A stretch of 57,787 bases of DNA from Moraxella sp. (GTDB lineage: Bacteria > Pseudomonadota > Gammaproteobacteria > Pseudomonadales > Moraxellaceae): positions 1 through 57,787 of the forward strand of contig JAUMYZ010000013.1 in the NCBI GenBank assembly GCA_030528385.1. Direction: 5' to 3'. Under the pieces are notes generated by a model. That model saw only the letters and a program-made list of their open reading frames with translations, was not told where the DNA came from and ran no database searches. Made by a program: the position numbers and the translations under genes. This document shows positions 1,542 to 17,787 of this stretch, one piece after another (within the stretch, counting starts at the first letter, position 1; every line of letters starts with the position of its first letter).

Positions 1542-2135
1542 ATGAAAACCATCCACCTTCACGGCATTCTTGCTAAAAAGTTTGGACGCTTTTTTAAACT
1601 AGATGTCCAAAGTGCCAAAGAAGCCTGCCATGCTTTAGCTTGCCAACTCCCTGCCTTTGGGCGGTTTATGATGGACAGCGAAAGTCTGGGTTATCGTTTT
1701 GCGGTGTTTAATGGCAAAAAGAAAAACCAAACAACCAACATCGGTCAAGATGAGCTAGACAACATCACCACCGCCAACCATATTCATATCGTGCCAAGGG
1801 TTATCGGTAGTGGCGGCAAAGCAATGGGCTGGCTGCAAGTGGTGGCGGGCGCTGCCTTAATTGCGGTGGGCGCACTTGGTACCTTTGCCACCGCTGGTCT
1901 ATCAACAGCACTTATCGGCGCAGGCGCAGGCTTAATGGTGGGTGGTGTGAGCAGCTTACTGATGCCCACCCCTAAAATAGACAATCCCAATGATGACGGC
2001 AACCGCCCCAACAACGGCTTTGGCGGGGCAATTACCACCGTGGCGCAAGGCAACCCTGTACCCATTTTATACGGTGAGCGAGATGTGGGCGGGTTTATCG
2101 TCTCGGCGGGGATTTATACGGAGGACAAAGCCTAA
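1542..2135 (+). CDS. Phage tail assembly protein I
   Basis: 197 aa. The N-terminal 85 residues resemble the ubiquitin-like fold of lambda gpI (MKTIHLHGILAKKFG, ANHIHIVPRVIG). A Gly/Ala-rich hydrophobic stretch follows at about residues 95-145, and the end has the conserved QGNPVPILYGERDVGGFIVSAG segment. It acts in tail-tip assembly with gpJ. The start has an AGGAAAAAA Shine-Dalgarno. The stop overlaps the gpJ start as TAATG, implying translational coupling. It is separated from gpK by the reversed hicAB cassette. Confidence 0.85.
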   Translation: MKTIHLHGILAKKFGRFFKLDVQSAKEACHALACQLPAFGRFMMDSESLGYRFAVFNGKKKNQTTNIGQDELDNITTANHIHIVPRVIGSGGKAMGWLQVVAGAALIAVGALGTFATAGLSTALIGAGAGLMVGGVSSLLMPTPKIDNPNDDGNRPNNGFGGAITTVAQGNPVPILYGERDVGGFIVSAGIYTEDKA

Positions 2136-5100
2136 TGCAAATCATCGGCGCAAAAAAAGGCAACAAAGCCTCTAAAAAGCCCCATATCCAAAAAGACACC
2201 ACCGCTTCTGTCGCCTTTTTTAAGGGGCTGCATGGTTTGTGTGAAGGTGAGATTGCAGGTCTGGCGGACGGGGGTAAATCCATTCGCCTTGACGGCACAC
2301 CCATCATCAATGCCAATGGCACGCCCAACTTTGAAGAGGTGAAGTGGTCGTTTCGTTCAGGCACACTAAGGCAAGAACACATTGCAGGCTTTCCCAGCGT
2401 AGAAAACGAAACAGCGGTCAATGTTGAGCTTCGCCACGACCGCCCCTTTATCAAGTATTTTAACAACACCCAACTGTCGGCAGTGCGTGTGCGTCTAAAT
2501 TGGAATGCTCTGCGCCAAGCCCACGACAACGGCGATGTAACAGGCTATCGCATTGATTATGCCATTGATGTGCAGAGCGATGGGGGCAGCTTTGTGCAGG
2601 TGCTTAACACCTGCATCAATGATAAAACATCACAAGGCTATAAGCGCTCGCACCGCATTGACTTGCCCAGTGCCAAGCGTGGCTGGAGCGTGCGCGTACG
2701 CCGTCTGACTGCCAATGCCGACAGCGAGCTTATCAGTGATAAAATGACGGTGGACGCCGTTACTGAAATCATTGACGCCAAGCTCACTTATCCTTGCACG
2801 GCACTTTTAGGGCTTGAGTATGACGCTCAAATCTTTAGCAGCATTGCCAAATTGGCAGTGCGTTTAAGGGGCAAGCTTATTCAAGTGCCAACGAACTACA
2901 ATCCCGAAACCCGTCAATATACAGGGCTGTGGGATGGCACCTTTAAACTTGAGTATTCTAATAACCCTGCGTGGGTCTATTATGACCTTTGCACCCACAA
3001 ACGCTATGGGCTGGGCGAGCGTCTGGCGGGACTGGTGGATAAATGGTCGCTTTACCGCCTTGCCCAATACTGTGATGCGCTGGTGGACGATGGTAAAGGC
3101 GGCACTGAGCCCCGCTTTACTTGTAATGTCTATCTTCAAAAGGCAGAAGACGCCTATCAAATTCTGCAAAACATCGCGTCCATCTTTCGGGCAATGAGCT
3201 ACTGGAATGGTGAGCAGATTGTTGTGGACAGCGACGTGCCCAAAGAAGCGGTTTATACCTTTAGCCGTGCCAATGTGGTGGGTGGTGAATTTAGTTACAC
3301 AGGCACACGCACGCGCGACCGCCACAGCGTCATACAAGTGGGCTGGGACAATCCTGATAATGACTTTAAAACCGAATATGAGTTTGTCCGCGATGAAGCA
3401 GCGATTGCCAAATACGGCATTAAAAAGCGAGAAATCAACGCCTTTGGCTGTACTTCTCGTGGGCAAGCCACTCGGGTGGGAAAATGGGCACTGTTGTCTG
3501 AGCAACTAGAAACCCGCACCGTGCAATTTAAAACAGGATTGATGGGCTTTATTCCGCAAGTGGGACAGGTGATTAACATTGCCGATGATGTCTTTGCTGG
3601 GCGTGCCATCAGCGGGCAGGTGCTGGCAGTGAGTAGCAACCAACGCCAAATTACCCTTGACAGACCCGCTGGCAAAGCGGGCGATACGTTGATGGTTAAT
3701 GGGGCAGACGGCACGCCCAAGCAAGCCATTGTTACTGCGGTGCGTGATAATGTACTAAGTGTTGCCATGCCCCTTGATGTTGATGTTGGGGCGATTTGGG
3801 CAATTGTCAGTGATGATTTACGCCTGATGCAGTTTCGTGTCATGGCTATTAAGCAAAATGACGATGCCAGCTTTGATATTAGCGCGCTACAATACGAGCG
3901 CAGCAAATTTGGCGCAGCAGATACGGGCGCGCGCCTTACCCAAACCCCCTATAGTGTATTAAAGCCTGAACCCATCCAAGCCCCACAAAATGTCAGCCTA
4001 AGCGCACACAGCCGTGTACATCAAGGCATAAGCATCACCACCCTAAACATCGCTTGGACGCAAGTCAAAGGCGCGGTTGGCTATATTGTCCAGTGGCGCA
4101 AAGACGATGGCAATTGGGTGAGCGCAGGCAAAATCACAGGGCTTAGCCACGACATTGAAGGCGTCTATGCAGGCAATTATATGGCGCGCGTACGTGCACT
4201 AGATGCCTTTGACAATGAAAGCCTTGCCACATCAAGCCAATTAACCCACATTGCAGGTAAAACAGGCAGACCGCCCCGCCTTGCTCGCTTAACCGCCACA
4301 GGCTTGCTGTTTGCCATGCGTTTAGAGTGGGTTTTCAACAAAGGCTCAGGCGATACCGCTTACACAGAAATCCAAGTATCGCCTGATGGCAGAAGCAACA
4401 TCGCCACATTGGGGCAATTTGCCTACCCCACCAACAGCCACACCATCAATGGCTTGCAAGGCAACTTAACTCAGCACTACCGCGCGCGCATTGTTGATAA
4501 GCTTGGCAATACCAGTGAGTGGACAGCTTGGGTGTCTGGCACCACTGACGCGCAAGCCGATAAAGTATTAGATTTACTACAAGGGCAAATTAGCCAAAGT
4601 CAGTTGCACAAAGACTTATCCACGCCGATTGGCAAAATCTTACCGCTTGAGCAAAGATTGGGGCAGCAAATCGGCAGGGTTGGCAGTCTAGAGCAATCAA
4701 TTACGAGTGCAAGAGATGAATTAAATCAAAATATTACAACTTTGCAAAGCAATTTAACAGCTGCAAAAAACACACTTGAGCAGTCAGTACAAAATGTGAA
4801 TAGACAACTAGGCACACTCAATCAAAGCCTATCTGCGGCGCAAAATAACATCACAACAACGCAGCGTGAATTAAACACCACCAAACAACATCTGACCACC
4901 GCTCAAAACACCCTAAACACGGCTGTTGCCAATATCACCACAGAACGCAATCGCATCAGCTCGGCAATCCGTGATATTGGTGCTTTGCAATCTGCCAATA
5001 ATGCCAAAACGCAACAGATTGCCAATTTAACCCAAACGGTGAATGGTCATACTTCGTCAATCCGTGAGCTTGGTGTAACCACTGGCGATTTATCACAAAA

Positions 5101-8100
5101 ATACAGCCAAATCAAAACCCAAGCGGATAAATCCACCAGCGAGATTACGGCGATTAAGCAGACCCAAAGTGGGCAGGCGACCAGTATTGAGCGGTTGGGG
5201 GCAAGCTTTGATGGGCTTAGTGTGGGTGGGCGTAATTTGTTGCGCAACTCGCAAGCAGAACGGACGGTTGCCAATGCCACCACACGAGAAAACTTTGTGC
5301 CAGCTTACGCACTAACCAAGCCCCTAGAGCCAAATACCGCCTATGTCTTATCTTATGAGTACAAAACAACGGATAATGCCAAAACCGCACAAGTGGGCTT
5401 TGTCAGCAGTGTCGGTCAGCATAAATTTAAAAGCAATTTAACCAAGACTGTAACTTGGCAAAAAGGTGTGTTTAAATTTACCACAGGCAACAATACCAAC
5501 CAAAACGGACACATCAGATTTGACAATGAAGGCACAGCCAATGGGCAATCAGCCAGCCTTTGGGTGAAAAATGTCAAACTGGAATTAGGGAGTGTACCCA
5601 GTGATTACACCCCTGCTCCTGAAGACGTGCAGACCGACATTGACCAAAAGGCAAGCAGTGCTAATCTTGAAATCTTACGTCAAACCCTAAGCAATGCCGA
5701 TACCGCCCTAAGCCAACAAATTACGGCAATGGACACGGCTTATAAGTCTGCTGACCGTACTTTGAGCACTAATTTGGCAAGTGAAATTAGTGCTCGTACA
5801 AGTGCAGATACTGCTCTGGGGCAACGCATTGACCGCTTGCAATCTGACTACAACGGCAACAAAGCAAGTGTGGCTAATCAGCTTAAAACATTGACCGATA
5901 AAGACACAGCAACAGCAACACAAATCAGTCAAATCACAGCGAACGTTAACACCGCAACAACCAAAGCCGATGACGGCATCAGACGAGCCAATAACGCTCA
6001 AAGCACAGCCAATACAGCAAATACCCAAGCCACACAAGCCAAAGCGGATATTGTGGCTGAACAAAAAGCAAGGTCTAATGCTGATAGTGCTTTATCAAGT
6101 CGCATTAACGCCCTAGACAGCAAATTCACCACTGCCGACAACACCATCAAAGCCAGCATTGCCACCGCCCAACAAACAGCGACTAATGCCCAACAAGCCC
6201 TAGCAACCGCCCAAAGTCAGCTAAACGCACGCTTTGACAATCTAAACATCGGCGCGCGCAATTACTTATCAGACAGCAAAAACTTGACTGACAGCAAATT
6301 GTGGCTGTGGGGCAAATCTGGCGATGAGACGTTGGGCAAAGCCACGCAAACAGCGGGTATGTTGTCTTTGCAAGGGCGGGTCAATGGCAAATGGAAGCAG
6401 TGGTGTCAGATTGCCAAAGTGCGAAATCAAGTAGCCAATGCCAAAGCCAGCGATGTGCTTGCTAAAATGGAAGTTGGCAAAACTTACACCTTGTCTTTTG
6501 AAGCCAAAGCCAGTAATGATAGCGACAGCTTGCGGACAGATTTTAGAGAGCATTACGCACACAACGGCAATAAAGCAAAAAATCATCTTAGCAAGACTTG
6601 GCAAATCAGCAATCAATGGGTGCGTTATCATGCCACTTTTGTGTTTAACCCCATCAACATCAGCGGAGCAACGTTGCAATACTGGGGACTGTATTTTATC
6701 TATTTTGGTACATCGGAAATCTTTATCAGAAAACCTAAACTAGAGCTTGGCAATACCCCCACAGACTATACAGAAGCCCCAGAAGACATTCAAACCGACA
6801 TCAATGCCGCCAAGAGCGAAGCGGCGGCAAACTTAAACACCATGCGTGAAACTTTGGCAACTGCTGACAGCGCACTGGGACGCAGAATTGACGCGGTGTC
6901 AGCTGAATTTAAACAAGCTGACAATACCATCAAGGCAAGTGTGCAAGCGGAAACACAAGCGCGCACCAATGCTGACAACGCCCTAAGCCAGCGGATTAAT
7001 GCTTTAGACAGTGCCTATAAAACTGCCGACAACCAAGCCAGCGCTAGAATAAGCCAGCTTGAACAAAGTCTAGCCAGTAAAGACGCTGCCATGGCTCGCC
7101 GCGTTGATGGCTTGCAGGCAAATTATACGCTACTTGACAACCGCAGCAAGTGGACAGAGCTCACCAGTACGCAAGACTTAAATAACCTAACCACACAGGG
7201 GAATTATTTTATCCGTGCAACTAACAACACCAATGCCCCACACAACGGCTGGCTATATGTTAGGGTTGATGTACCGCGCGCTGACCGCTTAACACAAACC
7301 GCTTGGGCGGATAATAACCCATCACTGCGTTATATGCGCACCAGAAGTGGCACAACATGGCATGGCTGGCAAAAACAAGCAACAGGCTCAGAGCTTGACA
7401 GCAAAGCCAGCAGTGCCAGCCTTACCGCTGAACAAAAAGCAAGGGCGGACGCTGATAGTGCTTTATCAAGTCGTATCACAGCGCTGGACAGCGCTTACAA
7501 AGCCGCTGACGCTGCCATGCGCGCCAGTATCACCAATGCCCAACAAACCGCAACCAATGCCCAACAAGCCCTAGCCACCGCCCAAAGTCAGCTTAATGCT
7601 AAGATTGATGGAATAAATGTAGGTGGTCGCAACTTGTTAATCGGCAGTCATGCCACCCGCAGCACGCACGGCACAACTGCCCTAAATGTTAGCCAGAATA
7701 TTGACTTTGTCAATGTGCGTCAGTTGGTGTTGTCTTGTGATGTTAAATACACCAATGCCCGCCGTGCCAGCACACAAGGGGCAAAATGGTTTAGGATTGG
7801 CGCAGAAATTCGCCTTGTTTGGACAGATGGCACCAGTAACTGGTACGGGGCTTGGCGAGCCAATGTGGCAAACGCAGGCAGCTTTCATGGCAGAGTGGCT
7901 TTAAAAATCAGTGTGCCAGCAGGCAAAACCATTAAAGCCATTGACAATGCCAAAATCCAAATTTGGGACATCTTAGGTGATGGCATGCTGGTAAAAAATG
8001 CCAAACTGGAAATCGGCAATGTGGCAACAGACTGGACACCCGCACCAGAAGACACAAGCACTGCCACCAGTGCGCTACAAGCCAAATTAGATGAGTTTAA

Positions 8101-9172
8101 ATCTGCCCAAGCGACTAAAGATAATGCCACCACCGCCAAGCTCTCCCAACTTGAAAGCAATTTAAATAGCAAAGCCAATGCCAGTGCCCTAAACCAAACC
8201 AACACCAAAGTGTCGCAAGCAGAAGGGCGTATCACGGCAGAAGCCAATAAAGTGAGTACATTACAAACCACGGTCGGACAGCACACTGCCAGCATCCAAC
8301 AGCAAGCCCAGTCCATCAATGGCTTGCGCGCGCAGTGGACACTCAAAGTAGAAAGCGGTGGCATTGTCTCAGGCATCGGCTTGGCAAGCGCTAATGGTAA
8401 GTCTGCCTTTGCCATCCGTGCCAATCAGTTTTATGTTGCCGACCCTACAGGCACCGCCAAGCGTCCGATGTTTAGTGTACTAACCAGCCCACAAACAATA
8501 AACGGCGTTACTGTGCCAGCAGGGACTTATATCAGTTCTGCTTATATTCAAAACGGCTCAATTACCACTGCCAAGATTGGTCATGCGCAGATTGACACGT
8601 TGCAAGTCAAAGACGGCGCAATCATTGTGCCGCGCGTGCAGTACAATGCAGGCTTTAGAACTTTTCATCAAAGTAATGAAATAGAAGTTGGCAGAATCAC
8701 AATTGATGCCAAAGGTGGTAATGTGATGATTGGCTTCGGTTTTCAAAGGTTGTTCTCACTGCCTAACGGAGCCTATTCGTGGGGAGCTTTCGTCCCCGCC
8801 ATTGATGAAACAAATCTGCACAATTTTGTACACGGTCATGTTTATGACAATACTTACAACAGGGTTGGCAATGTCAGCTTTCACATCAGAAGAAATGGTG
8901 TGGACATACACAATGTGTTCTTTAGACCAAATTATACAAAAAATGACAGCACAGCACTCAGCTGGCTTAATATCAACAGAGAAACACCCATCTTACTGTA
9001 TGACCAATATTCATCTCCAGCAATTGTAGATAATCCGCCATCTGGAAACACAACTTATACACTATTGATGGTGGTGTTCTCTAGCGCGGAGCACTTCAAT
9101 AATGACAGGAATGTGTCAAGACGCACCATTTTAAAGGGTCTGTCATTTAGTGTCATGGGCGTGAAACGTTAA
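2135..9172 (+). CDS. Phage host specificity protein J (tail tip/central fibre)
   Basis: 2345 aa, about twice the length of lambda gpJ. Residues 1-600 are the conserved tail-tip J region (start HIQKDTTASVAFFKGLHGLCEGEI). Two fibronectin type III-like domains follow at about 611-706 and 710-806. Then comes a long Ala/Gln/Thr-rich coiled-coil shaft broken by three related beta-rich modules at about 1029-1169, 1369-1552 and 1827-1971. Each module opens with a NIGARNYL/VGGRNLL-type motif and closes with LE(L/I)G-x-x-x-(S/T)-D-(Y/W)-T-x-A-P-E-D. A DUF1983-like region (about 2078 on) leads to a unique C-terminal tip, likely the receptor-binding end. The repeats are probably carbohydrate-binding; this is inferred from their shape. 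Confidence 0.92.
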   Translation: MQIIGAKKGNKASKKPHIQKDTTASVAFFKGLHGLCEGEIAGLADGGKSIRLDGTPIINANGTPNFEEVKWSFRSGTLRQEHIAGFPSVENETAVNVELRHDRPFIKYFNNTQLSAVRVRLNWNALRQAHDNGDVTGYRIDYAIDVQSDGGSFVQVLNTCINDKTSQGYKRSHRIDLPSAKRGWSVRVRRLTANADSELISDKMTVDAVTEIIDAKLTYPCTALLGLEYDAQIFSSIAKLAVRLRGKLIQVPTNYNPETRQYTGLWDGTFKLEYSNNPAWVYYDLCTHKRYGLGERLAGLVDKWSLYRLAQYCDALVDDGKGGTEPRFTCNVYLQKAEDAYQILQNIASIFRAMSYWNGEQIVVDSDVPKEAVYTFSRANVVGGEFSYTGTRTRDRHSVIQVGWDNPDNDFKTEYEFVRDEAAIAKYGIKKREINAFGCTSRGQATRVGKWALLSEQLETRTVQFKTGLMGFIPQVGQVINIADDVFAGRAISGQVLAVSSNQRQITLDRPAGKAGDTLMVNGADGTPKQAIVTAVRDNVLSVAMPLDVDVGAIWAIVSDDLRLMQFRVMAIKQNDDASFDISALQYERSKFGAADTGARLTQTPYSVLKPEPIQAPQNVSLSAHSRVHQGISITTLNIAWTQVKGAVGYIVQWRKDDGNWVSAGKITGLSHDIEGVYAGNYMARVRALDAFDNESLATSSQLTHIAGKTGRPPRLARLTATGLLFAMRLEWVFNKGSGDTAYTEIQVSPDGRSNIATLGQFAYPTNSHTINGLQGNLTQHYRARIVDKLGNTSEWTAWVSGTTDAQADKVLDLLQGQISQSQLHKDLSTPIGKILPLEQRLGQQIGRVGSLEQSITSARDELNQNITTLQSNLTAAKNTLEQSVQNVNRQLGTLNQSLSAAQNNITTTQRELNTTKQHLTTAQNTLNTAVANITTERNRISSAIRDIGALQSANNAKTQQIANLTQTVNGHTSSIRELGVTTGDLSQKYSQIKTQADKSTSEITAIKQTQSGQATSIERLGASFDGLSVGGRNLLRNSQAERTVANATTRENFVPAYALTKPLEPNTAYVLSYEYKTTDNAKTAQVGFVSSVGQHKFKSNLTKTVTWQKGVFKFTTGNNTNQNGHIRFDNEGTANGQSASLWVKNVKLELGSVPSDYTPAPEDVQTDIDQKASSANLEILRQTLSNADTALSQQITAMDTAYKSADRTLSTNLASEISARTSADTALGQRIDRLQSDYNGNKASVANQLKTLTDKDTATATQISQITANVNTATTKADDGIRRANNAQSTANTANTQATQAKADIVAEQKARSNADSALSSRINALDSKFTTADNTIKASIATAQQTATNAQQALATAQSQLNARFDNLNIGARNYLSDSKNLTDSKLWLWGKSGDETLGKATQTAGMLSLQGRVNGKWKQWCQIAKVRNQVANAKASDVLAKMEVGKTYTLSFEAKASNDSDSLRTDFREHYAHNGNKAKNHLSKTWQISNQWVRYHATFVFNPINISGATLQYWGLYFIYFGTSEIFIRKPKLELGNTPTDYTEAPEDIQTDINAAKSEAAANLNTMRETLATADSALGRRIDAVSAEFKQADNTIKASVQAETQARTNADNALSQRINALDSAYKTADNQASARISQLEQSLASKDAAMARRVDGLQANYTLLDNRSKWTELTSTQDLNNLTTQGNYFIRATNNTNAPHNGWLYVRVDVPRADRLTQTAWADNNPSLRYMRTRSGTTWHGWQKQATGSELDSKASSASLTAEQKARADADSALSSRITALDSAYKAADAAMRASITNAQQTATNAQQALATAQSQLNAKIDGINVGGRNLLIGSHATRSTHGTTALNVSQNIDFVNVRQLVLSCDVKYTNARRASTQGAKWFRIGAEIRLVWTDGTSNWYGAWRANVANAGSFHGRVALKISVPAGKTIKAIDNAKIQIWDILGDGMLVKNAKLEIGNVATDWTPAPEDTSTATSALQAKLDEFKSAQATKDNATTAKLSQLESNLNSKANASALNQTNTKVSQAEGRITAEANKVSTLQTTVGQHTASIQQQAQSINGLRAQWTLKVESGGIVSGIGLASANGKSAFAIRANQFYVADPTGTAKRPMFSVLTSPQTINGVTVPAGTYISSAYIQNGSITTAKIGHAQIDTLQVKDGAIIVPRVQYNAGFRTFHQSNEIEVGRITIDAKGGNVMIGFGFQRLFSLPNGAYSWGAFVPAIDETNLHNFVHGHVYDNTYNRVGNVSFHIRRNGVDIHNVFFRPNYTKNDSTALSWLNINRETPILLYDQYSSPAIVDNPPSGNTTYTLLMVVFSSAEHFNNDRNVSRRTILKGLSFSVMGVKR
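6055..7610 (+). repeat. Internal repeats in the gpJ coiled-coil shaft
   Basis: Near-identical coding stretches recur at about 6055-6235 and 7430-7605. Both encode AEQKAR, DADSALSSRI and QQTATNAQQALATAQSQLNA. A shorter related copy lies near 6955-7020. The DNA similarity is high enough for recombination to remove or duplicate the module between them. Confidence 0.75.
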
Positions 9173-11573: not shown

Positions 11574-11618
11574 ATTATATATAATATTAAAAAGTATTGC
11601 AATACTTTTTAATATTAT
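11574..11618 (-). promoter_or_regulatory. orf152 promoter with a 38-bp perfect palindrome
   Basis: On the - strand a -35 TTGCAA (complement of 11597-11602) lies 17 bp from a consensus -10 TATAAT (complement of 11574-11579). Positions 11581-11618 form a perfect 38-bp palindrome centred on GTATTG|CAATAC, covering the -35 and spacer. The palindrome also contains the acrIF11 stop codon, so it may double as a terminator hairpin. The same GTATTGCAATA core recurs in the promoter at 16144-16172. Confidence 0.75.
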
Positions 11619-12085
11619 TTTTTAAAAGCTGAGATTTCTGGGTTCACTATTAAATAACTTGTGCCATGCTCATCTAAGCATTCTACAGCGTCATAGCCCA
11701 AATTTCTGGCAATTACGCCGCGCAAGCGCTGCATCTCCCAGCCTAAATCATCTGCGTCAAACGCAGAGCGTGGGTCAAGGTATTCGGCATAATCGGCTAG
11801 ACTTGCTTCATCAGCAACAGCTTCGGCAATCTCACTTGCCAAGCTCAAGTCTGTGATGCATAACTCGTCAGCGATGATTTTGATGGCGTCATCGCAATGA
11901 AGGTCTCGGCTGCAAGCAATGCTTTGCACTTCATATGCATACACATGCTCACCGTGGCTTTCAGCAACCGAACTTCTGTCGGAAGCAAAGATGCCATCAA
12001 ATACATTATCTGCAGCACCAAGAGCATATACTCCGATTTTCACCCTTGGTGCATCTTCTTCGTATGAGCCGTGAAATAATTGCAT
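11615..12085 (-). CDS. acrIF11: AcrIF11-family anti-CRISPR, ADP-ribosyltransferase-like
   Basis: 156 aa. It matches AcrIF11 in pattern along its whole length: an N-terminal LFHGS, a GIFASDRSSVAESHGEHVYAYEV segment, an acidic middle (about residues 76-113), then WEMQRLRGVIARNLGYDAV followed by CLDEHGTSYLIVN. The last segment aligns with the QDEQGACYMI stretch of Pseudomonas AcrIF11, whose Asp is reported to be active-site; here it is Asp138. AcrIF11 proteins ADP-ribosylate Cas8f (Csy1) and block DNA recognition by type I-F Cascade. The gene has its own strong promoter (12117-12145) carrying a palindromic operator shared with the csy2-like gene. The type I-F target is inferred from the family. 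Confidence 0.85.
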   Translation of the reverse strand: MQLFHGSYEEDAPRVKIGVYALGAADNVFDGIFASDRSSVAESHGEHVYAYEVQSIACSRDLHCDDAIKIIADELCITDLSLASEIAEAVADEASLADYAEYLDPRSAFDADDLGWEMQRLRGVIARNLGYDAVECLDEHGTSYLIVNPEISAFKK

Positions 12086-12116
12086 AACATAACCTACTTA
12101 TTCTCTCTATGTGTAT

Positions 12117-12145
12117 AGAATAGTACGCAAAGCGTACTATGTCAA
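12117..12145 (-). promoter_or_regulatory. acrIF11 promoter with palindromic operator (TACGC-N3-GCGTA)
   Basis: On the - strand there is a perfect -35 TTGACA, a 17-bp spacer and a -10 TATTCT. The spacer is almost filled by a perfect inverted repeat TAGTACGC-N3-GCGTACTA (12121-12139). The -35 overlaps the stop codon of the upstream HTH gene. A near-identical layout with half-sites TATGC/GCATA is found before the csy2-like gene, so one repressor probably controls both. Confidence 0.85.
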
Positions 12146-12408
12146 GAGTTTTTTGAAAAAAAATCTGATAAATTTTCATAACCCAGCCGTCTTGCTTCTA
12201 GCTCATACAACAGCATATTCCACATTACAGTGTGGGGCTGGCGATAATTTGCGGTGCTGGGCTTACTCTGCCAACCTTTATATGTCTGCAAGCCAATGCC
12301 CAAAATCTGGGTAACTTGTGCTTGTGTCAAGCCACTTGCTTTATGTACAAGTTTAATATTATCAAAGCTGGGGTTGTTTAAATAGTCTAAAAAACTAAAA
12401 GTTGTCAT
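12142..12408 (-). CDS. HTH transcriptional regulator, candidate anti-CRISPR-associated (Aca) repressor
   Basis: 88 aa from MTTFSFLDYLNNPSF. I chose this ATG over a GTG 21 bp upstream because AAGGAAAC lies just before it. A helix-turn-helix is visible at about residues 18-45 (HKASGLTQAQVTQILGIGLQTYKGWQ). The gene overlaps the end of the csy2-like gene by 14 bp, so they are co-transcribed and coupled. Small HTH proteins ending acr operons are typically Aca repressors. The matching operators in the promoters of its own operon and of acrIF11 fit that. I do not recognise it as one of the named Aca families. DNA target assignment is inference. Confidence 0.75.
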   Translation of the reverse strand: MTTFSFLDYLNNPSFDNIKLVHKASGLTQAQVTQILGIGLQTYKGWQSKPSTANYRQPHTVMWNMLLYELEARRLGYENLSDFFSKNS

Positions 12409-13561
12409 TGCTGTTTCCTTGATTGCCACGCCATATGATATGATTTTCTGCCAAGTGCCTATGCCACCAAGCCTTTTTTGTAAATGATGACTGCTTTGTC
12501 ATGATGTAGATGGGTTCAGCCCATGCGTGTTTATAGCTATTTCTTGAGTTTTTACGCTCTTTTGGTGTTTCTAAAAGTGCATATCCTGCCTGATTTAAGC
12601 TATAGATGGACGGAGTGCTGGCGTGCAAGAATAGAGCTTGACTAAGCACGTCCCTTTTGTCATCAGTTTGTATATCACAGGTTGCATCTATTAAATAGTT
12701 GGCAACGGGTGGGGCGTCGGTAGCAAATACTTTGTAATCCCAAATACTACCACCTGCAAAACGTAAAATGGGAGTTTCTAACAAACATTGTTGTAGTTTT
12801 GGTAAATTATCCGACTTGAGCAATAACCTAATTTCTAGTGTTGCTGTCAATTCATTGGTAATCCCCCAAATTGTCTTTTTCTTGACTTTATTATAGCTAT
12901 TGTAGCGTTTTTGGTTTTCGGGAATGATACTACGAATGCCGATAGCAAATTTTATATCATCTCCCACCGCCCGTTCAAGTGTATGTACAAGACCACCGAT
13001 GGCGGTGATGGCAGGGTGTCCATAAGTTACAAAGCCACTTGTGATATTTGCCCCTTGAGCCATAAAAGACACACAAATCATCTCTTCTGTATCATTTTCA
13101 CTAACGATATTCGCAAGTCGGCGTTGTAGCAAATACAATCTGCCTTTTTGCTCAACCATAAGCTCACCATGATTACCCCATGCGGGCACGTTGGGTTCAA
13201 GTAAGAAACGTTTGAATTTAATGCTGTCATTATCTTTTAGACGCAAATATAATTCGTGCAGTAGCCCCATGCTTTCAAGTGGTGTAATGCTAATGTAATT
13301 ATCGTTACGCCAGTCTTGAGTGGGGATAAGTAGCTGTTTTATTGCCCGCCCATCTTGTATGTTGGGCAGGTGTTCAGCTGGCTGGGTGTCTTTAAAGTGC
13401 TTGATGTTGGCGGAGCTTCGTGGGCACGACCAATATTTTTTTGTCATCTCAATAGATTGTGATGTCAAATAACGTTTGTCTAGTTCATCAATAATTTGAG
13501 AGCATACGGCATCTTGTTGTGCTTTAGCATTGATGAGCTTGACTGAATGAGTGGCAAGCAT
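12395..13561 (-). CDS. csy2: Solo Csy2/Cas5f-like protein with N-terminal extension
   Basis: 388 aa, against about 327 for Pseudomonas Csy2. From about residue 160 it follows the Csy2 pattern: GHPAITAIGGLVHTLER (compare GFPSPGAFTGFVHALQR), then ELTATLEIRLLL, then ILRFAGGSIWDYKVF (compare MRLAGGSILPW). In type I-F Cascade, Csy2 binds the crRNA 5' handle together with Csy1. Residues 1-150 (KKYWSCPRSSANIKHF, NDNYISITPLESMGLLHEL) are not part of ordinary Csy2 and I cannot place them. No other cas gene is nearby, so it cannot form a working system. It lies among acr genes, next to I-F-like repeats, under a consensus promoter with the acrIF11-type operator. Likely role: Cascade assembly decoy. Confidence 0.75.
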   Translation of the reverse strand: MLATHSVKLINAKAQQDAVCSQIIDELDKRYLTSQSIEMTKKYWSCPRSSANIKHFKDTQPAEHLPNIQDGRAIKQLLIPTQDWRNDNYISITPLESMGLLHELYLRLKDNDSIKFKRFLLEPNVPAWGNHGELMVEQKGRLYLLQRRLANIVSENDTEEMICVSFMAQGANITSGFVTYGHPAITAIGGLVHTLERAVGDDIKFAIGIRSIIPENQKRYNSYNKVKKKTIWGITNELTATLEIRLLLKSDNLPKLQQCLLETPILRFAGGSIWDYKVFATDAPPVANYLIDATCDIQTDDKRDVLSQALFLHASTPSIYSLNQAGYALLETPKERKNSRNSYKHAWAEPIYIMTKQSSFTKKAWWHRHLAENHIIWRGNQGNSNDNF

Positions 13562-13596
13562 ACTAATTTCTTAATTTATAAAAGAAACGACCTTTA

Positions 13597-13625
13597 ATAT
13601 AGTATGCAACGCATATTTTGTCAAG
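13597..13625 (-). promoter_or_regulatory. csy2-like/HTH operon promoter with palindromic operator (TATGC-N3-GCATA)
   Basis: On the - strand there is a perfect -35 TTGACA, a 17-bp spacer and a -10 TATATT. The inverted repeat TATGC-AAC-GCATA (13604-13616) occupies the spacer at exactly the same offset from the -10 as the acrIF11 operator. The two operators share the form TAYGC-N3-GCRTA. Confidence 0.85.
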
Positions 13626-13652
13626 CTATTGTCTTGGAATTTGTACACGCTA

Positions 13653-13681
13653 TTAACTGTGCCAAGTTTTTAAAGTAAAAT
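13653..13681 (+). promoter_or_regulatory. Possible + strand promoter for the repeat-containing small RNA
   Basis: TTAACT (13653-13658) and TAAAAT (13676-13681) are separated by 17 bp, matching 4/6 and 5/6 of the sigma-70 boxes. Transcription would start near 13688, about 28 bp before the first repeat. A second weaker option is TTGTCT-16-TATTAA at 13629-13656. Neither is strong. Confidence 0.4.
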
Positions 13682-13715
13682 CGGGTCGTATCTTATGAGA
13701 AATTGTAAGTTGCCT

Positions 13716-13836
13716 TTGTTCCACCGTGTAGGTGGCTTAGAAATGATTGTAAATCACGTTTTCCACCGTTGAGGTGGCTTGGAAGTATTTATTAGTGATT
13801 TATAATCTTGTTTCCATCGTTGAGGTGGTTTATGAA
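13716..13836 (+). CRISPR. Three degenerate type I-F-like repeats, not a normal array
   Basis: Three 28-nt units: 13716-13743, 13758-13785 and 13809-13836. Each has 5 nt, a 5-bp stem, a 5-nt loop, the other stem arm and an 8-nt handle, exactly the I-F repeat geometry. Stems and loops are CCACC-GTGTA-GGTGG, CCACC-GTTGA-GGTGG and CCATC-GTTGA-GGTGG; the third keeps pairing through a G-U. Handles are CTTAGAAA (identical to the I-F handle), CTTGGAAG and TTTATGAA. The spacings of 14 and 23 nt are too short for I-F spacers (about 32 nt), and there is no leader or cas1. Confidence 0.75.
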
Positions 13837-13861
13837 AAAAGCCCCAAATGGGGCTTTTTTC
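13836..13861. terminator. Bidirectional intrinsic terminator shared by acrVA2 and the repeat RNA
   Basis: GCCCC-AAAT-GGGGC is flanked by A6 on the left and T6 on the right, so it is a strong intrinsic terminator read from either strand. It directly follows the third repeat on the + strand and directly follows the acrVA2-like stop codon on the - strand. Confidence 0.9.
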
Positions 13862-14863
13862 TTAGGCATTCACAAACATAGCTGGCAACCATTTCACTTT
13901 AAATTCTTTTGCTTGTCCTGAGCCATACCAGTAACCATGCCAGTGTCCACGTCTGATGTGTGGACGCTTGCGACTGGGTTTGCGTGTCTTGTCGCTTTCG
14001 GTGATTTGTTGATTGAATGTGCGTATCTCACCGCCCAAGCGTTCACCAATTTTGTAGATGGTTGGCTCGCTTGGTACAATGAATACCCCTGTTTTTGGGT
14101 GTTGTGTGTGTTTAGGCTTGGATAGTTCGCTTCGGCTGACAGGCTCACCGATAACATTGCTGATGTCTGGCTCTTCAACACACAGCCACAGCAGTGCCGA
14201 CAGCAGACTTGTTGCCATCTTATAATCGGTTTGCATAAAGATGTTGGTGGCAATCCCATCGCCCATCGCTGTACTGTACGTTTTTCGCACGGCTTGTTCA
14301 ACCGTTAGTCCATCATCAATCACAATGGAAATGGGGTGCAACTGTGTGTAACTGATGTCTAGCCCATCGTCAAGATTTGGTACTAAATTTAGTACCTTCT
14401 TGCCCTTTTGCCAATCAAACAATGCCCAAAAGCCCAAAAGGTCGGTGGTGGTATTGCCCGATTTTAGGGTTGTTAAACCCTTTGGCAATTCAAGATAGAT
14501 GCACCACTCTGGCAGATGATTAAAAATGCTGACAGGGGTGTCGTTGGGTATCGGTGATTGCAAAACACTTTCGGCAATGTCTGGGTTTAGCACATAGATA
14601 CCAAGTGTATTACGCCATGCCCCAAATAAATGCAACCCATAAAAATAACGAATTGCATCTAAATCTAGGGGGTTGTTTTTATTTTTTGACCCCATGACGA
14701 TAAGCTGTGCCATTTTGGCACTCATGCTAAATAATTGCTGGGCTGGACAAAACACCCCAGCTTGGGGGTTTTTTATTGCCCATGCTTGCATTTTTTTATA
14801 GACATCTTTGGCGTCTGGGTTGGCACGATTAAAGTCTATCATTTTTTTAAATGCTGGGTGCAT
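13862..14863 (-). CDS. acrVA2: AcrVA2 homologue, anti-CRISPR against Cas12a
   Basis: 333 aa, against about 322 for the M. bovoculi protein. Recognisable AcrVA2 segments occur throughout: YKKMQAW (about 24-30), GAWRNTLGIY (about 81-90), LP-W-C-Y near 120, LLWLCVEEPDI, then SRSELSKPKHT, IYKIGERLGGE, and the hallmark C-terminus RPHIRRGHWHGYW, SGQAKEFKVKW. AcrVA2 is reported to bind the N-terminal part of Cas12a as it is made and to cause loss of its mRNA, so it blocks type V-A immunity before protein appears. An AAGGAAACACC Shine-Dalgarno precedes the ATG, and the stop is followed at once by the shared terminator. It is the last gene of the - strand operon that begins near 16120. The Cas12a target is inferred from family identity. 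Confidence 0.92.
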   Translation of the reverse strand: MHPAFKKMIDFNRANPDAKDVYKKMQAWAIKNPQAGVFCPAQQLFSMSAKMAQLIVMGSKNKNNPLDLDAIRYFYGLHLFGAWRNTLGIYVLNPDIAESVLQSPIPNDTPVSIFNHLPEWCIYLELPKGLTTLKSGNTTTDLLGFWALFDWQKGKKVLNLVPNLDDGLDISYTQLHPISIVIDDGLTVEQAVRKTYSTAMGDGIATNIFMQTDYKMATSLLSALLWLCVEEPDISNVIGEPVSRSELSKPKHTQHPKTGVFIVPSEPTIYKIGERLGGEIRTFNQQITESDKTRKPSRKRPHIRRGHWHGYWYGSGQAKEFKVKWLPAMFVNA

Positions 14864-14911
14864 GGTGTTTCCTTATTTAAAATAAAACGAAAAGACAGTT
14901 TAACGCCGTGT

Positions 14912-14998
14912 CTAGGGCGGGGTATCTGCTCCGCAGTGGGGGCAGTAATACACGGCGATGGCAGTGTCATCGGTAGCAAGGTAGGTGTAAATTTTCAT
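14912..14998 (-). CDS. 28-aa microprotein with a Cys-x-x-Cys knuckle
   Basis: 28 codons starting MKIYTYLATDDTAIAVYYC and containing CPHCG, half of a zinc ribbon. GGAGAAA lies at good distance before the ATG. It fits between the DUF1874-like gene and acrVA2 on the same strand, so it would be part of the operon. The length is below usual gene-calling limits. It may be a real small metal-binding protein or a remnant of a larger one. Confidence 0.45.
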   Translation of the reverse strand: MKIYTYLATDDTAIAVYYCPHCGADTPP

Positions 14999-15036
14999 AG
15001 CATTTCTCCATTGATTAAAGTTAAATTTACTTACTG

Positions 15037-15070
15037 CTTGCACCTGCCGATGGGGCTGGCAAGTGCAAGG
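15037..15070 (-). other. Stem-loop in the intergenic region after the DUF1874-like gene
   Basis: CTTGCACCTGCC can pair with GGCAAGTGCAAG across a 10-nt loop with one mismatch. No T-tract follows on the - strand, so it is not a standard terminator. It may be a processing or mRNA-stability element within the operon. Confidence 0.45.
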
Positions 15071-15085
15071 ATAAATAAACTTGTC

Positions 15086-15436
15086 TTATGCTTGCACGGT
15101 GTACAAGCTAAAAACAAAAGTGGCGGACGCAATTTCGTCGTTTGTGTACTCGTGGCGCGTCGCGTCTAAGCGTGGCAAGCCACGCACTCCCATCACTAGC
15201 AGGCTATCGCCTGCTTGGAGTAGCACTTTTGGTGCTACTTCAGGGATAGCAACATGAATATCAAAGCGACTATTCATGGCATTGATGGTTGCTTGGTGGC
15301 TTGGGTTTAAGCAAGGCTCAACACCCTTGCTGATGATGACTTTCGCTTCATCAGCAGTTAAAGATTTGCGGGTGATAGTGCAGTCGCTTGCAAACATGCT
15401 ATCAGCGATAGCGAAACCGAAAAATGTTTTTGACAT
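15086..15436 (-). CDS. DUF1874 / AcrIII-1-like protein (viral ring nuclease fold), catalytic Glu apparently missing
   Basis: 116 aa, the size of DUF1874 proteins such as STIV B116 and SIRV1 gp29 (AcrIII-1). The core matches: an N-terminal strand, NPSHQATINAMNSRF with His47, KVLLQAGDSLLVMGVRGLP with Arg85, and the C-terminal DEIASATFVFSLYTV. AcrIII-1 degrades cyclic tetra-adenylate and silences type III CRISPR signalling. His47 and Arg85 fall at the same numbers as reported there, but the R-L-P-E-G motif that supplies Glu88 reads R-G-L-P-R-L. It may therefore bind rather than cut its ligand, or act on something else. Its neighbours are acr genes on the same strand. The assignment is from fold-level motif matching only. 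Confidence 0.6.
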   Translation of the reverse strand: MSKTFFGFAIADSMFASDCTITRKSLTADEAKVIISKGVEPCLNPSHQATINAMNSRFDIHVAIPEVAPKVLLQAGDSLLVMGVRGLPRLDATRHEYTNDEIASATFVFSLYTVQA

Positions 15437-15486
15437 AATAAGCTCCTTTGCTTAAAAGAATAATAAAATTGTCGGGCTGTCAGTCC

Positions 15487-15520
15487 AACAACTAAACAAA
15501 CCGTGATTTGCTTAGTTGTT
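15487..15520 (-). other. Long stem-loop in the leader of the DUF1874-like gene
   Basis: AACAACTAAACAAA pairs with TTTGCTTAGTTGTT (one mismatch) around a 6-nt loop. It lies between orf171 and the DUF1874-like gene, about 50 nt before the latter's start. A structured leader could set the relative expression of the two genes. Confidence 0.5.
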
Positions 15521-15567
15521 AAACCCACAAGGGGTAAGCAGTTTTGAGCCATGCTTAGGGCTTTGAT

Positions 15568-16083
15568 TTAGAAAAATACCAACCAAATTTCATTATCTTT
15601 GGTATTTTCTATGGCAATAAATGGTAAATCTAGTGTAACTGAGCGATTGTAATAACTCACACTATTGCTTGGATAAGAGCAAGTGTGTGAGTATTCACGC
15701 TCTAGCTTGCCATAAACCGCTTCATTTAGGCGGTTTGACTTCCGCCCGCTCCAAGTATTGCTCTCTTCGCTGACGGTTTTTGTGTTTTTATCATAGCGAA
15801 TATGGTTATCGCCAAAGAATGGGTGGCGACTATCTATCGCCGACCATATTTTAATATCTTTGAAAGCAAAGCGTGGGTCTTTTTCAAGCGTGCTAATGAC
15901 TTGCACAATGATTTTTTCACGTTCGGTTTCAGAAGGATTGTTCATGCTTTCCCACCACACATTCATCATGCGTGGGTGGTATTCATATTCATGATTTTCT
16001 TGCGTCATGTATTTACGCACGGCTTGACGATTGATATTAACATCAACAATACGGTCAGCTTTTTTAACGATAACTTGTGTCAT
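15568..16083 (-). CDS. Unrecognised protein (orf171), first gene of the acrVA2 operon
   Basis: 171 aa and soluble, with mixed charge. Distinct stretches are MTQVIVKKADRIVDVNINRQAVRKYM, NVWWESMNNPSETEREKIIV and a middle part rich in polar residues (DSRHPFFGDNHIRYDKN). I do not recognise it. Its promoter (16144-16172) carries the same palindromic operator core as the orf152 promoter. The DUF1874-like gene, the microprotein and acrVA2 follow on the same strand with no visible terminator until 13861. Co-regulation with known acr genes makes it a candidate new anti-CRISPR or an Acr helper. This is association only. Confidence 0.65.
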   Translation of the reverse strand: MTQVIVKKADRIVDVNINRQAVRKYMTQENHEYEYHPRMMNVWWESMNNPSETEREKIIVQVISTLEKDPRFAFKDIKIWSAIDSRHPFFGDNHIRYDKNTKTVSEESNTWSGRKSNRLNEAVYGKLEREYSHTCSYPSNSVSYYNRSVTLDLPFIAIENTKDNEIWLVFF

Positions 16084-16143
16084 GGCGATACTCCGATTAA
16101 ATTTAACTTTGATTTATAGACATCTTGTCTGTCTATGGGTGCT

Positions 16144-16749: not shown

Positions 16750-17787
16750 TTAAGTTTGGTTTAAAAAATGCTCAACCGCGCTGTATTGTTTGCTGGTGCT
16801 GTTTTCTTGATACATCGCTTGGCGAAAAGCGTTGGAATTGGGCAAGCCACCTGTATACCATGCGATGTGTTTGCGGGCAATACGACAGCCTAAATACTCA
16901 CCATAAAAACGGTACAACTCGTCCAAATGCGTCAAGACAATCTTGGTCAACGTGGGCAAATCTGGCGCATCAAACAGCTCACCTGTTTGTAAATAATGAA
17001 TGATGTCCCTAAAAATCCAAGGTTGACCTTGAGCGGCGCGCCCTATCATAATGGCATCTGCACCCGTCATTTCGTACACTTGTTTGGCTTTTTGGGGACT
17101 GTCAATATCGCCATTGACAATCACAGGAATGGACACTTGTTCTTTGACTTGTTTGATGAGTTCATAACGTGCCTGCCCTGCATAAAAATCTGCACGAGTG
17201 CGCCCATGAATGGCGATGGCGGCAATGCCTGCGTTCTCGGCGATTTTGGCAACGGTCAGGATGTTTTCTTTGCCATTTTCAAAGCCCAAACGGGTCTTTA
17301 GTGTTACGGGCACATTGACTGCGCTCACCGCGCGCTCTAGCAGTGTTTTGACCAATGGCAAGTCTTGTAACAGTGCTGAGCCTGCCAATTTTTTACAAAC
17401 TTTTTTGGCGGGACAACCCATATTGATGTCCACAATCTGCGCACCATTTGCCACTTGAAACCGTGCCGCTTCTGCCAGTTTGTCGGGTTCTGAACCAGCA
17501 ATTTGTGCCGAAATGGGGGCAATCTCACCATCAAAATTGGTGCGATACAAAGACTTTTTGCGCGCATATAACGCCGTGTCGGCAATAATCATCTCACTGA
17601 CAGCGTGTCCTGCGCCAAAAGATTTGCACAATCTGCGAAAAGGGTTGTCGGTAACGCCCGCCATCGGCGCAAGCATTAAGCGATTGTCTATTTTTAAGCC
17701 TTTGATGTATAAAGGGTTTAGTAAAGGGTGTTGGTCTTTATTGGGTTTGTTAATGTCGTTTATAACGTCAGGTGTTTTTTGTTGCAT
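16750..17787 (-). CDS. dusB: tRNA-dihydrouridine synthase B
   Basis: 345 aa from the ATG at 17787. A TTG at 17835 would extend it by 16 residues, but the FMN-barrel opening (NRLMLAPMAGVTDNPFR) already lies 40 residues in. Catalytic Cys is in NMGCPAKKVCKK, the DusB-type signature. HGRTRADFYAGQA, VNGDIDS and ADAIMIGRAAQGQPWIF complete the barrel. The enzyme reduces uridines in the tRNA D-loop using NADPH and FMN. The GspE/PilB-type ATPase gene is immediately upstream on the same strand. The prophage end adjoins its 3' end. Confidence 0.95.
   Translation of the reverse strand: MQQKTPDVINDINKPNKDQHPLLNPLYIKGLKIDNRLMLAPMAGVTDNPFRRLCKSFGAGHAVSEMIIADTALYARKKSLYRTNFDGEIAPISAQIAGSEPDKLAEAARFQVANGAQIVDINMGCPAKKVCKKLAGSALLQDLPLVKTLLERAVSAVNVPVTLKTRLGFENGKENILTVAKIAENAGIAAIAIHGRTRADFYAGQARYELIKQVKEQVSIPVIVNGDIDSPQKAKQVYEMTGADAIMIGRAAQGQPWIFRDIIHYLQTGELFDAPDLPTLTKIVLTHLDELYRFYGEYLGCRIARKHIAWYTGGLPNSNAFRQAMYQENSTSKQYSAVEHFLNQT

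Follow-up and report, generated by a model that had tools for sequence, protein, structure and literature searches.

How should we understand a Csy2-like gene that lies in a Moraxella prophage beside repeats of type I-F CRISPR (clustered regularly interspaced short palindromic repeats) geometry? The locus belongs to contig JAUMYZ010000013.1 of Moraxella sp., of which a stretch of 57,787 bp has been analysed (hereafter the window), and a sequence-only reading had seen in it a solo Csy2 paired with a three-hairpin repeat RNA. Judging from homology, the gene encodes a compact Cas8f-Cas5f fusion, and we consider, with a probability of roughly 0.6, that gene and RNA make up a two-part anti-type I-F module, in which a Cascade-poisoning Cas8/5 protein is combined with a tandem RNA of the Racr (RNA anti-CRISPR) type. 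Its expression, its binding, its inhibition of the type I-F system and the joint action of its two parts are what we infer. Racrs are known, and so are viral Cas homologues; what appears to be new is the side-by-side pairing of a Cas subunit with tandem repeat RNAs, and in the open-licence papers searched we have found no description of a solo Cas8/5f paired in this way.

The 388-aa protein matches the PADLOC models of Cas5f (E 3e-14) and Cas85f (E 1e-13) as well as Pfam Csy2 (E 2e-7; 30.9 bits, above the cut-off of 25); its match to the NCBIfam Csy2 equivalog (E 2e-6, 27.3 bits) is far under the cut-off of 154.1, and PHROGs gives no match. In addition, the family libraries give a second, weaker Cas8f signal at residues ~72–110. 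Profile comparison extends this signal: residues 2–110 align on Cas8f 78–223 (hhalign E 5e-6, probability 86, with Cas8f taken from seven Moraxella genomes), and residues 165–377 align on Cas5f (profile-profile E 1e-10). The Cas85f and Cas5f models are matched by all eight family members, and the Cas8f model by five of the eight. That is, the likeness to Csy2 holds, while the gene does not encode a lone Csy2; as far as its sequence can tell, it is a compact Cas8f-Cas5f fusion that has lost the Cas8f N-terminus and C-terminal bundle. The protein starts at the THxxK motif near Cas8f residue 80 and keeps KQLL..P..Y..ITPL; in a MAFFT alignment with Cas8f, the likeness extends through N.S.L..GR.YLL and stops short of the Cas8f C-terminal part. 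The lysine of TKPQN is replaced by A, S or D in nine of nine family members, compared with K in five of seven Cas8f rows. We take the lysine and asparagine of this Csy1 motif to read the protospacer adjacent motif (PAM), and the C-terminal bundle of Csy1 to recruit Cas2/3. The trimmed protein would most likely enter the host Cascade in place of Cas5f and Cas8f, much as AcrIB3 takes over from Cas5 in type I-B, and the resulting complex could neither sense the PAM nor recruit Cas2/3.

Among solved structures, the best match of the family profile is the Cas8/5 fusion of an I-F3 CRISPR-associated transposon (CAST), 6pig (E 3e-18, residues 80–388 on 185–502). With the 640-aa chain 6lnb, residues 80–126 and 149–388 align with 198–242 and 366–622, and the stretch ~243–365 is skipped. 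The domain order is identical to that of the CAST fusions, but the central helical part ~243–365 is missing, the family members are shorter (382–434 aa versus 640), and no Tn7-like genes have been found among the seven neighbours of the gene in the general Pfam and NCBIfam scans, the only place where they were sought. A locus of this kind might also be what is left of an I-F3 (CAST-like) system, once captured and now in decay without a present function, as the CAST Cas8/5 fusions are the closest solved relatives, the repeats are degenerate and one plasmid carries half a gene. We regard this as very unlikely, since all 14 aligned gene copies are open, the repeat stems covary, the gene has its promoter-operator in common with acrIF11, and it recurs beside anti-CRISPR (acr) genes.

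On the opposite strand, ~155 bp from the start codon of the fusion gene, begins the first of three tandem repeats (R1 to R3), whose copies at 13719, 13761 and 13812 are spaced 42 and 51 nt apart. Each has a 5-bp stem and a 5-nt loop in the I-F register. They are followed by a terminator-like palindrome (13831–13864) which folds as a 12-bp stem with a T run; the terminator scan did not list it, probably because this T run belongs to the stem. No other cas gene has been found among the seven neighbours (Pfam and NCBIfam for all, PADLOC and PHROGs for six of the seven). In these respects the layout is as the sequence-only reading had described it. R1 gives the best Rfam match within 12000–15000, namely CRISPR-DR4 (24.3 bits, E 0.03, under the gathering score of 35). 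Compared with the I-F array of 62 repeats in the same genome, the handle of R1, CTTAGAAA, is identical, the handles of R2 and R3 depart, and the stem differs by a compensatory change from CCATC/GATGG to CCACC/GGTGG. Apart from the repeats, we have observed that linkers 1 and 2 (13744–13808) can pair over 13 bp, which is reached in 1 of 20000 shuffles, and that this long stem encloses the hairpin of R2.

The exact I-F handle in the first repeat had been taken as the key of the RNA. The handle is indeed exact in R1, but it is degenerate in the other copies and in the relatives, and what is kept throughout is the Cas6f-type hairpin. Such a pattern fits RacrIF1, for which the Racr study (PMC10651486) reports that inhibition was abolished when the stem-loop was altered and was still possible when the handle was, and also that Cas6f-Cas7f complexes are formed without Cas5f and Cas8f. 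In the two-part module, the repeat RNA would act as a tandem version of RacrIF1: a single transcript would present a number of Cas6f-type hairpins, separated by short linkers, onto which Cas6f and Cas7f would be drawn. The two parts of the module might act on one complex, made of phage RNA, phage subunit and host Cas6f and Cas7f, or side by side; we lean towards one complex.

The relatives of the fusion gene are 25–35% identical overall, and those with annotation are called hypothetical. By tblastn (25–32% identity), they are found in 2 of 50,697 phage records, the Pasteurella phages Pm86 and Pmp12, and in 28 of 72,556 plasmid records (Acinetobacter 23, Burkholderia 3, Moraxella 2), 27 of which cover at least 80% of the query. 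The family profile search added six viral contigs (30–35% by tblastn), three of them Pasteurella-type, and viral scans with two different family alignments returned the identical six loci. Scans for close relatives with the single protein gave none in genome contigs or viral contigs, and neither did a second scan of the genome contigs with the family alignment as query. In order- and class-wide searches (390 and 369 genomes), the full-length fusion gene is present only in its own genome; the other six and four matching genomes show short matches, with open frames of 316–379 aa, the size of an ordinary Csy2. Two of the plasmid relatives (L010 and L011, A. baumannii), annotated as hypothetical, are located directly after parA/parB on conjugative plasmids of ~77.5 kb.

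In four of the five lineages borne by phages, where near-identical phages are taken once, hairpins of I-F geometry adjoin the gene; they do so in none of the three plasmid lineages. The four lineages show four layouts. In the window, three units lie upstream of the gene and are divergent from it. In the five Pasteurella-type loci (L004, L005, L034, L035 and L037, some of which are near-copies), four to five units stand behind the gene in its own orientation; the first overlaps the stop codon, and the last is followed by a terminator-like hairpin. In L038, three units on the other strand lie directly beyond the end of the gene, with a terminator-like hairpin after them, and L033 has one unit just upstream of the gene on the same strand.

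A hairpin model was built from 17 units, omitting the 7-nt-loop units of Pm86 and the first and near-copy units of L034/L037 and L035, all of which the model recovered. Its stem measures 5 bp, 97.6% of the cells in it are paired, and the stem covariation is 0.444, as against 0.252 ± 0.035 in shuffles and at most 0.226 in slid controls. A second model (the leave-out model), built without the rows of L038, L033 and the viral contig L048, finds two of the three L038 units (E 8e-6 and 1e-4), both units of L048 (E 2e-6 and 2e-5) as well as every one of the 62 host-array repeats (E 1.5e-4). Rfam CRISPR-DR4 is again the best match for units of L034 and L038 (0.007 and 0.008) and is found for a unit of L048 (0.06), all under the gathering score.

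The linkers are 14 and 23 nt long in the window, 25–28 nt in the Pasteurella-type loci and 18 and 23 nt in L038, compared with spacers of 32–33 nt in the host array. At like positions they are nearly constant in the three Pasteurella-type loci compared. Since they are short and nearly constant, the phage linkers do not behave as acquired spacers. This bears on the idea of a viral CRISPR mini-array that turns the Cas proteins of the host on competing phages. That a phage carries I-F-like repeats in tandem would suit it, and viral mini-arrays are known (PMC11656645). Nevertheless, it is the least probable of the readings weighed here, as the repeats differ from those of the host, the linkers (14–28 nt) fall short of the array spacers, and their near equality among the three loci gives no sign of spacer turnover.

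The host genome contains a complete I-F operon, with cas1, cas3 and csy1–4 above their cut-offs, and its array of 62 repeats holds 61 spacers. Five of these spacers match the prophage (window positions 1153, 3812, 7327, 7593 and 8764), all with a CC PAM; two matches are perfect, two have one mismatch and one has four, while shuffled spacers give 0 of 305. From the complete operon and the perfect CC-PAM spacers against the prophage, it follows that the I-F system is inhibited or off.

On the other hand, a number of observations weigh against the two-part module. First, AcrIF11 alone could explain the survival of self-targeting, so that self-targeting is no specific pointer to the new module. 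Second, gene and RNA also occur apart. L036 carries the fusion gene with no hairpins near it, and hairpins are absent from six plasmid loci taken from the 28 records (Burkholderia L006 and L007, M. osloensis L008 and L009, A. baumannii L010 and L011; the scan was repeated without filters for all but L011, and some loci end at the end of the record); hence the fusion protein can exist without the RNA. Conversely, the Pasteurella-type prophage L054 has a four-hairpin array with a terminator-like hairpin (~7900–8160) directly behind the operon leader and no fusion gene, an absence that may be an assembly error, and the 56-kb viral contig L048 has two tandem I-F-like hairpins 59 nt apart (1945–2031, minus strand), with no cas8/5-like gene in the 2.2 kb examined. 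In the A. baumannii plasmid record CP061542, the match is limited to roughly one half of the fusion gene. Third, of five covariation measures, two do no better than the shuffles: the pairs changed on both sides number three, reached by 93 of 500 shuffles, and the further pair types number five, reached by 499 of 500. The shuffles ignore relatedness, which is high here, many units being near-copies. The single hairpin of L033 scores E 8e-5 with the 17-unit model and 0.039 with the leave-out model, and it has no Rfam repeat match; handles and loops drift across units and relatives, the 8-nt handle being exact only in R1. Finally, the AlphaFold2 model of the protein (7-row alignment) is poor, with a predicted local distance difference test score (pLDDT) of 44.5. 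Foldseek on this model gives 23 matches at E ≤ 1e-3, all of them type I-F Cascade/Csy entries with low TM-scores, and because the model is poor they count as weak support.

The separate occurrences suit a reading with two independent anti-CRISPRs that merely cluster, namely a tandem Racr and a separate Cascade poison which form no joint complex: L036 and the plasmids have only the protein, L054 and L048 have only the RNA, and acr and racr genes cluster generally (PMC10651486). In favour of the two-part module, known anti-CRISPRs neighbour the fusion gene in four of eight lineages, where only the AcrIF11 and AcrVA2 families were sought (by tblastn). Pmp12 has an AcrVA2-like neighbour (E 4e-14), which has not been found in the other Pasteurella-type loci; AcrIF11 stands beside the gene in L036, and an AcrVA2 relative does so on the M. 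osloensis plasmids. No sequence relation of the fusion protein to AcrIF11 or AcrVA2 has been found. However, gene and hairpins adjoin in four of five phage-borne lineages and in four layouts, which makes random clustering less likely, and the 9–12 kb examined of the Moraxella catarrhalis phages Mcat1, Mcat4 (AcrVA2 and AcrIF11) and Mcat5 (AcrVA2) hold neither the gene nor the hairpins, save a weak match in Mcat5 (E 0.011). Overall, we consider independent action possible, though less likely than not; it overlaps with the two-part module, as the latter leaves joint action undecided.

A different role of the RNA is suggested by the host operon. CreR is described as an autorepressing guide RNA of type I and V-A systems (PMC12737573) and is named for I-B, I-E and V-A (PMC13131331). 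In the host operon, we have observed a two-hairpin CreR-like element between csy1 and cas3 (L031 13520–13592, plus strand). The leave-out hairpin model matches this gap (E 5e-4 and 0.09), and the guide of the element has an 11-nt match to a site in front of csy1, CC-TATTTATAGTT (L031 target 13464). Possible similar elements exist in four of seven other Moraxella cas loci (L056, L057, L058 and L061), each with a hairpin carrying CTTAGAAA and a CC-flanked guide match 43–65 nt away. These matches are 7, 7, 14 and 7 nt long with every sixth position free; the three 7-nt cases (L056, L057, L061) have one guide in common and come without a shuffle control. L055 and L059 show no CreR-like match, and chance-like matches are all that is found in L060; L056 and L061 each have two more places with matches of that sort.

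The phage RNA could accordingly be a pirated CreR, that is, a short-guide RNA which is processed like a crRNA (CRISPR RNA), loads into the host Cascade and, by binding but not cleaving the csy1 promoter, reduces expression of the cas genes. The hairpin of R1 agrees with the second hairpin of the host CreR-like element at 15 of 15 positions and with the array repeat at 12 of 15. The first seven nucleotides of linker 2, TATTTAT, are also the start of the CreR-like guide and of its CC-PAM site in the csy1 promoter, and linker 1, compared with 20 kb of the cas locus, has one of its two longest matches (9, with the sixth position free) in the csy1 promoter region. Both linker matches together are reached at a frequency of 0.0001 in shuffles (linker 1 alone 0.003, linker 2 alone 0.023) and by none of 43 AT-rich control segments (linker 2 alone by 1 of 43). 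Yet these likeness tests were chosen after the matches had been seen. The match of linker 2 is just 7 nt long, and 0.5–1% of shuffles reach a CC-PAM match (1036 of 200000 for this site; 941 of 100000 for any regional CC site with either linker). Another CC site 10 kb away outscores it, the PAM at the linker 1 site is GT and not CC, the two linkers pair with each other, and common ancestry with the CreR-like locus would give an equal likeness. Like CreR (PMC12737573, PMC13131331 and PMC12948488), the RNA has a hairpin pair and a short AT-rich guide, and the R1 hairpin is identical to a host CreR-like one; unlike CreR, it is phage-borne, has three hairpins and matches the promoter beside a CC PAM by no more than a 7-nt seed. 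No description of a phage copy of CreR has been found in the open-licence papers. Altogether, we judge CreR piracy to be unlikely. A combination, in which a CreR-copy RNA holds the cas operon down and the trimmed Cas8/5 stops the remaining Cascade from killing, appears to us likewise unlikely; if true, one module would hit type I-F at transcription, RNA processing and assembly.

With regard to regulation, the sequence-only reading had placed gene and RNA in one regulated unit next to AcrIF11. The AcrIF11 gene is there (Table 1), and the fusion gene shares its promoter-operator with it; the RNA, in contrast, has its own divergent promoter-like site without the operator. A 26-nt stretch consisting of a palindrome and the -35 hexamer has exactly two copies in the window, at the acrIF11 and the fusion-gene promoters (the latter copy at 13600–13625), and none in 100 shuffles, the pattern being drawn from those same two sites. 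Exact matches of the 16-nt palindrome are likewise limited to these two promoters; with up to three mismatches it gives 38 matches where 35 are expected, which is chance. The gene of a helix-turn-helix (HTH) protein (phrog_7950) sits between the two operator copies, and we propose its product as a candidate repressor at the shared operator. Before AcrIF11 of L036, an inverted repeat, ACCGCACAGCGTGCGGT, was noticed by eye at 4427–4454 between -35- and -10-like hexamers; its layout is that of the window operator and its sequence is different.

Phage genes occupy the left of the window, including a tail protein at 2135–9172, and the genes right of the prophage are presumably of the host, dus-like at 16750 and pilB-like at 17836 as named from their translations alone. 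AcrIF11 and AcrVA2 are direct neighbours in one cluster with the fusion gene. At the DNA level, five Moraxella catarrhalis phages are the only ones among the 50,697 phage records with likeness to 11600–16100. The locus as a whole is found in its own genome alone among 22 of the genus, and the DNA match of one other genome of the genus is 24 nt of the terminator palindrome.

Table 1 Features of the locus and of the prophage in the window, with strand and supporting matches.
Feature	Position	Strand	Evidence
AcrIF11, anti-CRISPR ADP-ribosyltransferase family	11615..12085	-	NF052490 E 1e-29; PDB 6kyf E 2e-12
acrIF11 promoter, TTGACA-17-TATTCT, 10/12, second operator copy	12117..12146	-	
Small HTH repressor-like protein, overlapping the end of the fusion gene	12142..12429	-	phrog_7950 E 5e-7
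Compact Cas8f-Cas5f fusion (by homology), 388 aa, open reading frame	12395..13561	-	Cas8f match from THxxK and Cas5f match
Fusion-gene promoter, TTGACA-17-TATATT, 11/12, inverted repeat between hexamers	13596..13625	-	
Repeat-RNA promoter-like site, TTAACT-17-TAAAAT, 9/12, weak (chance sites are common)	13653..13681	+	
Repeat R1, hairpin CCACC-GTGTA-GGTGG, handle CTTAGAAA	13716..13743	+	
Linker 1, 14 nt	13744..13757	+	
Repeat R2, hairpin CCACC-GTTGA-GGTGG, handle CTTGGAAG	13758..13785	+	
Linker 2, 23 nt	13786..13808	+	
Repeat R3, hairpin CCATC-GTTGA-GGTGG, handle TTTATGAA	13809..13836	+	
Symmetrical terminator-like palindrome, common to the repeat RNA and the convergent acrVA2	13831..13864	+	
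AcrVA2	13862..14863	-	PDB 7ci1 E 1.6e-75
Protospacer of host I-F array spacer 30, CC PAM	3812..3843	-	perfect match
Protospacer of host I-F array spacer 20, CC PAM	8764..8795	+	perfect match

Compared with known systems, the RNA resembles RacrIF1 and other Racrs as a phage-encoded I-F repeat mimic with a Cas6f-type hairpin, beside acr genes and in an I-F host. It differs from them in having three to five tandem hairpins with short linkers instead of a solitary one (only L033 is single), and in the Cas8/5-like gene alongside. In the Racr study (PMC10651486), SRUFinder drops any repeat that has a near neighbour or a flank match within 100 bp, so the tandem form falls outside the published Racr screen. 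The protein recalls AcrIB3 and AcrIB4, which PMC13131331 describes as phage homologues of Cascade subunits (Cas5 and the Cas8 C-terminus), AcrIB3 mimicking and displacing Cas5 in type I-B (Katz et al. 2024, as described there). Like these two, it is a phage-encoded homologue of Cascade subunits, and it stands as an orphan on a mobile element beside acr genes; unlike them, it belongs to type I-F, joins Cas8 and Cas5 parts in one trimmed protein and has a repeat RNA alongside.

Overall, several phages that are only distantly related have taken up a Cas subunit and, next to it, repeat RNAs. As the published repeat screen passes over tandem units by its rules, more such RNAs may be hidden, and the natural variants with the gene only, with the RNA only and with both make the joint action of the two parts directly testable.

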